The position numbers and the translations under genes were made by a program. A stretch of DNA of 64,000 nt from Gammaproteobacteria bacterium (GTDB lineage Bacteria; Pseudomonadota; Gammaproteobacteria; Steroidobacterales; Woeseiaceae): NCBI GenBank assembly GCA_009937525.1, contig JAACFE010000003.1, positions 1 through 64,000 of the forward strand. Direction: 5' to 3'. Below, piece by piece: positions 1 through 62,223 of the stretch. The notes beneath the pieces were generated by a model. The model searched no databases and was not told the origin of the DNA. It saw only the letters and a list, made by a program, of their open reading frames with translations. Each line of letters begins with the position of its first letter. Position 1 is the first letter of the stretch.

Positions 1-1
1 C

Positions 2-92
2 TGGCGGAGAGGGTGGGATTCGAACCCACGAAAGGCTACTAACCTTTGCTGGTTTTCAAGACCAGTGCATTCAACCGCTCTGCCACCTCTCC
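2..92 (-). tRNA. tRNA-Ser (anticodon UGA)
   Basis: Read on the minus strand this is a complete 91-nt class II tRNA. The 7-bp acceptor stem GGAGAGG/CCTCTCC is followed by discriminator G and an encoded CCA at 4-2. The anticodon loop CTTGAAA gives UGA, there is a variable arm, and the T-arm carries GGTTCGAATCC. It decodes UCA-family serine codons. A partial copy of its 5' end and leader lies upstream on the same strand (117-235), so the nearest good promoter is about 155 bp away, beyond that copy. Confidence 0.97.
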
Positions 93-17210: not shown

Positions 17211-17842
17211 TCGAGTTCCTTCCTGCGGTACTCGCACCATTCGACGATCGTGCAGCGCCAGCACTCGGGCCTGCGCGCCTTGCAGACATAGCGCCCGTGC
17301 AGGATCAGCCAGTGATGCGCGTCCTTCATGAATTGCTCGGGGGTCAGTTTGACGAGACGCTTCTCGACTTCGAGTGGCGTCTTGCCTTTGGCCAGCCCCG
17401 TGCGGTTGGCCACGCGAAAGATGTGGGTGTCGACCGCGATCGTCGGTTCGCCGAACGCGGTGTTCAGGATGACGTTCGCCGTCTTGCGGCCCACGCCCGG
17501 TAGCCGTTCCAGTTCCTCGCGGGTCCGCGGTACCTCGCCATCGTGCTCCTCCACGAGGATGCGGCAGGTCTTGATGATGTTCTCGGCCTTGCTGTTGAAG
17601 AGCCCGATCGTGCGGATATAGGACTTCAGGCCGTCGATGCCGAGGGCCAGTATGGCCTGCGGTGTGTTGGCGACCTTGTAGAGTTTCGACGTCGCCTTGT
17701 TCACGCCAACGTCGGTCGCCTGCGCGGAGAGTATTACCGAGACGAGTAACTCGAAGGGCGTGCCGTAGTCGAGTTCCGTCGTCGGATGCGGATTGAGTTC
17801 CCGCAGGCGACTGTAAATGGCTGCGCGCTTTTCCCTGTTCAC
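17207..17842 (-). CDS. nth: endonuclease III
   Basis: A 211-residue bifunctional DNA glycosylase/AP lyase that removes oxidised pyrimidines. It has the helix-hairpin-helix LPGVGRKTANVIL, catalytic Lys in that motif, catalytic Asp in VDTHIFRV, and the C-terminal C-x6-C-x2-C-x5-C iron-sulphur loop (CKARRPECWRCTIVEWC). A GTG start overlaps the rnfE stop. The rnfE-nth junction is conserved in gammaproteobacteria and links the Fe-S enzyme with an electron-transfer complex. Confidence 0.96.
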   Translation of the reverse strand: MNREKRAAIYSRLRELNPHPTTELDYGTPFELLVSVILSAQATDVGVNKATSKLYKVANTPQAILALGIDGLKSYIRTIGLFNSKAENIIKTCRILVEEHDGEVPRTREELERLPGVGRKTANVILNTAFGEPTIAVDTHIFRVANRTGLAKGKTPLEVEKRLVKLTPEQFMKDAHHWLILHGRYVCKARRPECWRCTIVEWCEYRRKELE

Positions 17843-61985: not shown

Positions 61986-62076
61986 GGCACTCCCCAGGGG
62001 ATTGATTCGCGCCTGCAGGGCGCACTCGCTGCGCTCGCTCGTTTGTCGGCCGGCTTCGCCGGCCCCGGTTCGAACC
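61986..62076 (-). pseudogene. interrupted T-arm/3' copy of tRNA-Glu
   Basis: On the minus strand 62002-61986 reads ATCCCCTGGGGAGTGCC, matching the T-loop end, T-stem and acceptor of the intact tRNA-Glu with one change. On the other side of the insert (62003-62069), 62076-62070 reads GGTTCGA, the matching T-loop start. So a T-arm has been split at its loop. Nothing of the anticodon half is left. It lies beyond the terminator of the intact gene. Confidence 0.7.
62003..62069 (-). mobile_element. 67-nt structured insert in tRNA-Glu copy
   Basis: Minus-strand order: ACCGG, a perfect 7-bp hairpin with GAA loop (GGCCGGC-GAA-GCCGGCC), GAC, a GCGA-rich linker (ACGAGCGAGCGCAGCGAGT), then GCGCC-CTGCA-GGCGC, ending GGCGCGAATCA. 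This is the same plan and nearly the same end as the insert at 128-200 (GGCGCGAGTCA), and the same kind of target, a tRNA loop. It has no coding capacity. Confidence 0.55.
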
Positions 62077-62111
62077 AGCGGTTCGTAATCCTGCAGAGAA
62101 ACAGCCAAATG

Positions 62112-62140
62112 AAAAAAGGAGGCCGCAAGGGCCTCCTTTT
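62112..62140. terminator. bidirectional intrinsic terminator
   Basis: A-run, stem AAGGAGGCC (62116-62124), 5-nt loop GCAAG, stem GGCCTCCTT (62130-62138), T-run. Readable on both strands: it ends the tRNA-Glu transcript just 8 nt after its CCA and would also end transcripts from DUF4920. Confidence 0.88.
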
Positions 62141-62147
62141 GTTCATC

Positions 62148-62223
62148 TGGCACTCCCTAGGGGATTCGAACCCCTGTTACCGCCGTGAGAGGGCGGCGTC
62201 CTAAACCGCTAGACGAAGGGAGC
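62148..62223 (-). tRNA. tRNA-Glu (anticodon CUC)
   Basis: A 76-nt minus-strand tRNA. The acceptor GCTCCCT pairs with AGGGAGT (one G-U), followed by discriminator G and encoded CCA at 62150-62148. The anticodon loop CTCTCAC gives CUC, and the T-arm is AGGGGTTCGAATCCCCT. It sits directly between its promoter (62267-62294) and terminator (62112-62140), a single-gene unit. Confidence 0.97.

Follow-up and report, generated by a model that had tools for sequence, protein, structure and literature searches.

Results

Split tRNA copies in the window

Near one end of the window, by which the whole analysed stretch of 64,000 nucleotides is meant, an intact tRNA-Glu gene with the anticodon CTC (62148–62223, minus strand; ARAGORN and Rfam RF00005) is directly followed, downstream of its terminator, by a split tRNA-Glu 3' fragment. 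On the minus strand, the palindromic terminator AAAAGGAGGCCCTTGCGGCCTCCTTTTTT (62112–62140) separates the gene from an element that starts with a left arm, CAGGATTACGAACCGC (62078–62093), and continues with the left T-loop flank GGTTCGA (62070–62076), a 67-bp hairpin insert of type A (62003–62069; identified by alignments and by a 55.2-bit match to the R1 model described below), and the tRNA-Glu 3' half ATCCCCTGGGGAGTGCC (61986–62002), which extends from the T-loop to the discriminator/CC and is identical in 16 of 17 positions to the intact tRNA-Glu(CTC). The same order of tRNA, terminator, and element is also found in relatives. The first-pass annotation had placed a 67-bp insert in the T-loop of a tRNA-Glu fragment, and the junctions GGTTCGA | 62069–62003 | ATCCCCTGGGGAGTGCC on the minus strand agree with it. 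Its description is confirmed, with one correction: the segment 62078–62093, compared with GGGGATTCGAACCCC, is a degenerate inverted tRNA-Glu T-arm rather than direct-order tRNA sequence. Inverted T-arms of the GGATGAGAAC type occupy the corresponding position in relatives and in the RtT repeats of E. coli.

The insert begins with a stem that we call hairpin 1 (GGCCGGC-GAA-GCCGGCC, 62048–62064, minus strand), supported by covariation among 106 distinct copies. It is followed by GAC, a GCGAG-rich linker, and a terminal hairpin, GCGCC-CTGCA-GGCGC (62009–62023, minus strand; from sequence and predicted fold), after which comes GAATCA. The CCCGAAGGG hairpin, present in longer copies, is missing here. 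Since the 91-nt stretch folded alone shows nothing unusual (z −0.5), structure in this single copy proves nothing.

At the other end of the window, an intact tRNA-Ser gene (TGA; 1–92, minus strand; ARAGORN and RF00005) is preceded upstream by a split copy of its 5' part. This copy, also on the minus strand, consists of the D-loop left flank CCGGAGAGGTGGCAGAGCGGTTGA (201–224), a 73-bp type B hairpin insert (128–200, from sequence and fold), and the right flank ATGCACTGGTC (117–127). The junction lies in the D-loop context GGTTGA|ATGC, and the insert ends with GGCGCGAGTCA. Exact GGCGCGARTCAA occurs in the 3.0-Mb genome of the window only at the ends of the Glu and Ser inserts. When one mismatch was allowed in genome G000, the other 45 sites fell in unrelated sequence, mostly apparent coding regions (30 of the 47 sites were read), and this short end motif alone is thus not diagnostic. 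A comparable arrangement is seen in another genome (L191, G066:C13, 3933–4123), where tandem tRNA-Ser(GCT) copies are split in the D-loop as GGTCGA|insert; these copies support a second target of the kind represented by the tRNA-Ser copy in the window.

Insert types and folding

Type A inserts, as at tRNA-Glu in the window, have the form CCGAG-hairpin-CGACAGACG..., while type B inserts, as at tRNA-Ser, are exemplified by TTCGA-AAAACGC..GCGTTTT-GGACGC...; both types often end with GARTCA before ATCC, and type B is also present at tRNA-Glu in relatives. The structure is established by comparison between copies: five of the seven pairs of hairpin 1 change on both sides, with 112 compensatory cells counted, compared to 17 in shuffled alignments. 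The loops are dominated by C-GNA-G: of 166 insert hairpins with a triloop, 118 (71%) are of this type, compared to 7% of C-NNN-G contexts and to 43 of the 228 flanking hairpins; tetraloop hairpins number only 13. Triloops of the C-GNA-G type are exceptionally stable in DNA, and given this stability their excess is taken as a sign of folding as DNA. We infer from this excess, the small number of tetraloops, and the terminator between the tRNA and the element that the latter acts as folded DNA rather than as RNA.

Distribution and tRNA targets

In a blast comparison of the locus with relatives, the insert appeared at many places. The R1 model was constructed from the first 41 positions of 19 copies (GGTTCGAN-CCGA-7-bp hairpin-GACA) and contains no tRNA 3' half, so that the sequence on the 3' side of each match provides an independent test. 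Within the genus, which the named matches place in the family Woeseiaceae, 47 of 61 genomes gave R1 matches; further matches were found in 72 of 396 genomes of the order, belonging to several families, and in six of 369 genomes of a class-wide sample, two of the six being the genus itself. The resemblance of the Glu and Ser inserts noticed in the first-pass annotation is not due to chance. Named matches to the exact pattern come mostly from uncultured Woeseiaceae and from other gammaproteobacterial or proteobacterial metagenome-assembled genomes (MAGs); the carriers are uncultured bacteria of marine sediments. The plasmid and phage collections that were searched contained no relatives of the element.

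A tRNA or tmRNA 3' half (at least 15 of 17 positions identical) lies within 170 nt after 55 of 91 non-redundant R1 matches, and after 42 of the 67 matches that were found without a tRNA query. The background, 37 of 1820 segments drawn at random from these loci (2%), probably includes some true sites. Many of the remaining matches are tRNA copies with a decayed end. In the genome of the window itself, three more type A sites are located at fragments of Pro and Arg tRNAs. The annotation had proposed a small, tRNA-directed element, to be abandoned if no further matches or only matches unrelated to tRNA were found; the search did not refute it, but yielded further matches here and in most relatives, nearly all of them in tRNA or tmRNA fragments, which supports a real, repeated, tRNA-directed element.

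The targets comprise Glu, Ser, Arg, Pro, Met, Gln, Phe, and Val tRNAs, as well as tmRNA. For Ser, Glu, Met, Arg, Pro, and Val tRNAs and for tmRNA, the sequences showed 3' halves with the insert in the T-loop. In 75 of 87 left junctions TTC is found within 7 nt before CCGAG, and junctions read by eye overlap by one or two bases at most.

A second subfamily, TCCGAG-hairpin-GACATAACTGAG, was seen in other MAGs (L113, L116, L122, L127, L128, L131, L134, L136, and L188), several cases being clearly located in tRNA-Met-like T-arms (ATCCTGCCCCCGCTACC). RtT-type sites are also present in two dense arrays (L179, G031:C17:29500–40000, and L276, G148:C8:16500–26500), which consist of nine and 16 tRNA genes, respectively, in part with unusual anticodons.

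Relation to RtT RNA

Although the element had been regarded as unnamed, the insert family is RtT-like (Rfam RF00391; the E. coli tyrT repeats) and belongs to a wider RtT-type family, with scores below the Rfam threshold. In a cmscan search the RtT model aligned over its full length (1–130 of 130) and in the right register with L074 (21.9 bits), L280 (27.4 bits, E 0.0026), and L148 (20.7 bits), the best of these matches, 27.4 bits, remaining under the gathering threshold of 45 bits. The insert in the window gave no listed match to RtT even at E 5, and is tied to RtT only through its relatives. In the reciprocal direction, a profile of the Woeseiaceae copies matched E. coli RtT at L222 1683–1564 (E 1e-4). 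A second E. coli RtT copy was matched with E 0.09, and the profile had no other match in this stretch.

The architecture is co-linear over the full length, with an inverted T-arm, GGTTCGA, hairpins, and AATCC..CCA, and the tRNA 3' end contained in the element is that of the neighbouring tRNA gene. Four RtT copies with an identical plan are present in the E. coli tyrT operon, in the order inverted T-arm GGGGAAGGGTGAGAACC, AAGGTTCGA, hairpins, and ATCCTTCCCCCACCACCA; the motif GGATGAGAAC is common to the E. coli and Woeseiaceae copies, and L280 and E. coli have 28 identical bases in common (GGGTGAGGAGCGAAGCGACGAATAATCC), compared to nine for a reverse-complement control. When only the insert parts were compared with E. 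coli RtT, z values of 4.5–10.5 were obtained for L062, L066, L148, L155, and L151, where the stretch of L148 took in a few T-stem bases; the Ser insert of the window gave z 3.3, and others, among them the Glu insert of the window (z 1.0), aligned weakly. A profile of inserts only (seven of 17 inserts parsed) did not find E. coli RtT. As the R1 core model reached only 7.6 bits on E. coli RtT, in the right register, the homology rests on the full-length comparison. RtT-like matches are present in 4291 of 5426 E. coli genomes, with a median of six places.

Like the RtT/tyrT repeats (rttR, tpr), the Woeseiaceae elements consist of an inverted T-arm, the 5' half of a T-stem, a string of hairpins, and a T-loop with the acceptor 3' half up to CCA; both form tandem units adjoining a tRNA, and both produce a small Arg-rich reading frame as a by-product (an ORF in L062, tpr in E. 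coli). Whereas RtT belongs to tyrT, the Woeseiaceae elements are associated with many tRNA species and tmRNA, and they differ from it in hairpin 1, mostly a 7-bp C-GNA-G hairpin, in the terminator placed between tRNA and element, and in gene cargo. In E. coli, transcripts of tRNA operons release an RtT RNA that possibly affects the stringent response, and RtT RNAs beside tRNA-Asn and tRNA-Lys were detected by Northern blot in Actinobacillus (PMC4986893), so that RtT at other tRNAs is not wholly new; in enterobacteria, some rtT-resembling copies have been classed as BIMEs (PMC2965389). New here are the wide range of tRNAs, with tmRNA, that carry the element, the T-loop rule, the folded-DNA signature, the presence/absence variation at one orthologous locus, and the gene-bearing tRNA-Phe arrays. 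The literature searched held no account of the T-loop rule, tmRNA, the Woeseiaceae expansion, or cargo arrays, and nothing relevant was found on Woeseia and mobile elements at tRNAs.

Units, arrays, and cargo

Most downstream units follow the order tRNA, terminator, inverted T-arm, GGTTCGA, insert, and 3' half, with 65–90 bp in most of them between the previous 3' half and the start of R1. A strong terminator precedes most copies. Tandem units are found in L061, L062, L168, and L169. In L061 (3100–3900, G016:C80), the intact tRNA-Glu is preceded by a tandem series of three full-length tRNA-Glu copies, which bear promoters, have inserts in their T-loops, and repeat with a period of ~204 bp. The unit is thus duplicated together with tRNA pieces in these four loci and in the tRNA-Phe array of G027:C7, as the annotation had suspected when it considered copying along with the tRNA fragment.

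In that array, roughly a dozen tRNA-Phe pieces lie on one strand across 50 kb; most begin close to the anticodon loop, and several extend to CCA and are interrupted by the insert. Ordinary multi-gene cargo occupies the intervals, and G012:C149 resembles this array. The linkage of the array to an intact tRNA-Phe is inferred, since the intact gene lies at the end of another contig. An empty-site test of the dispersed tRNA-Phe units gave no clean empty allele, the relatives matching only one flank or other copies of the unit. A perfect palindrome of ~52 bp is present in L196 (G023:C112, around position 17400 of the contig), no more than a few hundred bases downstream of a unit derived from tRNA-Phe.

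The designation of the element as non-coding is correct for the insert itself, but not for the units, which can enclose genes in relatives. A ParD-like pair, identified by eye and without a Pfam match, forms the cargo in L062 and L064, and that of L178 includes Fic/Doc, antidote, and nucleotidyltransferase (NTP_transf_8) genes. The ParD-like protein is very similar in two species (L062 4064–4600 and L064 95–343), and the cargo of L062, L064, and L178 (275–3942), located between or beside the sites, resembles toxin-antitoxin genes, with a HigB-like gene plus antidote among them.

The pcnB-linked tRNA-Glu locus

The tRNA-Glu(CTC) locus linked to pcnB was compared among relatives with 72–85% pcnB identity, the window itself being L031. 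A type A element is present in L032 and type B at least in L037, L042, L045, and L048, as well as, by reading, in L050 and L056; other relatives have relics or no element, and many members of the genus lack it. The occurrence of type A, type B, or neither at one orthologous locus shows gain, loss, or exchange there.

Discussion

The reading that we prefer, to which we assign a probability of about 0.5, is that of a non-autonomous DNA element that inserts at T-loops and is tolerated in spare tRNA copies. A GC-rich string of hairpins would enter the T-loop between GGTTC(R)A and ATYC without target-site duplication, sometimes using instead the similar D-loop site GGTYGA, and would survive only in displaced or duplicated tRNA pieces, because insertion into a sole working tRNA would be harmful. 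The unit of tRNA 3' half, terminator, sometimes genes, T-stem-like arm, and hairpin string would then be copied in tandem beside the tRNA. The anatomy, family, target, compensatory hairpins, presence/absence variation, tandem units, and cargo are shown directly; beyond these, the element may move as DNA through single-strand folding, driven by an enzyme supplied in trans. Several observations speak against this reading: simple insertion does not explain the terminator and inverted T-arm common to many units, the insert in the window is linked to RtT only by way of its relatives, and transcription of RtT RNA in E. coli and Actinobacillus (PMC4986893) indicates an RNA role at least there.

Also against it, no mobilising enzyme for the element was found. 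Genomes G000, G018, G024, and G066 contain sites but only two tyrosine recombinases each, which in G000 read as XerD and XerC. Y1/HUH transposases are absent from four of 11 site-bearing genomes (G000, G012, G021, and G036) and reverse transcriptases from nine of 11, these absences being provisional because the genomes are partly incomplete MAGs. A Y1 transposase, a reverse transcriptase, and a dedicated tyrosine recombinase were thus not supported as universal partners in the carriers tested.

Several known mobile systems resemble the element in part. Miniature elements derived from IS200/IS605 have hairpin ends and insert precisely at a fixed short target without target duplication. Hairpin ends and precise, duplication-free insertion next to a fixed short target are likewise found here, although the target is a tRNA T-loop and a Y1 transposase is lacking in several carriers, namely the four incomplete MAGs listed above. 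The BIMEs/REP of enterobacteria are also hairpin repeats, but they are scattered between genes rather than tied to tRNA T-loops, and the Y1 (RAYT) transposase of REP is absent from the same four of 11 carrier genomes. Integron cassettes (attC) and tRNA-integrated islands share folded sites, cargo modules in one orientation, and displaced tRNA 3' fragments with the element. Identity with attC was not supported, as the junction is GGTTCRA in place of the core GTTRRRY / RYYYAAC; nor is there an IntI in G000, where the only two PF00589 proteins were read as XerD and XerC, or any integrase in the arrays examined. We can speculate, as a tentative extension of the preferred reading, that a widespread mobile element, folding as single-stranded DNA and targeting tRNA T-loops, might have RtT as its enteric branch. 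Such an element would build integron-like arrays of cargo modules anchored at tRNA genes and would use a novel or housekeeping recombinase.

A rather unlikely alternative is that the hairpin strings are attachment-site remnants, that is, right ends of modules placed into T-loops by a tyrosine integrase in a tRNA-island-attR layout, with an integron-like array as the extreme. Integrases classically use T-loops and tmRNA as their sites (Islander, PMC4383910), an intact tRNA stands upstream in downstream-type units, and cargo lies between consecutive 3' halves, as in L062, L064, L178, and the multi-gene tRNA-Phe modules of G027:C7 and G012:C149. However, the latter two contigs contain no integrase, some site-bearing genomes have only two tyrosine recombinases, and many units hold a terminator and nothing else. 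Insert-bearing copies of full tRNA length that precede the intact tRNA (L061, L158) also disagree with it, as do the tRNA-Phe pieces, which begin in the anticodon loop, yet have the insert in the T-loop.

It is also unlikely that the copies are kept by selection as a functional RNA, in which the left arm would pair with the tRNA 3' half into an acceptor/T-arm-like helix ending in CCA and released by tRNA-processing enzymes, as proposed for E. coli rtT RNA. The release of RtT RNA in E. coli and its detection in Actinobacillus (PMC4986893) favour such a role, and the helix and hairpins are conserved, with GGATGAGAAC in E. coli and Woeseiaceae copies alike. Nevertheless, in Woeseiaceae a strong terminator usually lies between the tRNA and the element, the hairpins have DNA-type triloops (C-GNA-G) and hardly any tetraloops, the orthologous locus lacks the element in many members of the genus, and many copies are truncated or decayed (L061, L143). 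Highly improbable is a replication by-product, in which template switching at terminator and T-arm palindromes, unequal recombination, and gene conversion would spread the hairpins with no mobile element: palindromes do follow one another along the unit, where the inverted T-arm comes after the terminator palindrome, and site-bearing genomes share no specialised recombinase or transposase among those tested, but chance switching would not give the same hairpin family at the same T-loop position at unrelated tRNAs, at tmRNA, in several families, and in E. coli.

The repeats of the E. coli tyrT operon have been known for decades without a convincing explanation of their origin. The same plan at many tRNAs and tmRNA in another order shows one family with one rule, the split T-loop of a spare copy. 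The movement of the element, its enzyme, and any RNA role thereby become testable, and the gene-bearing units suggest a little-noticed route by which genes may accumulate at tRNA loci.
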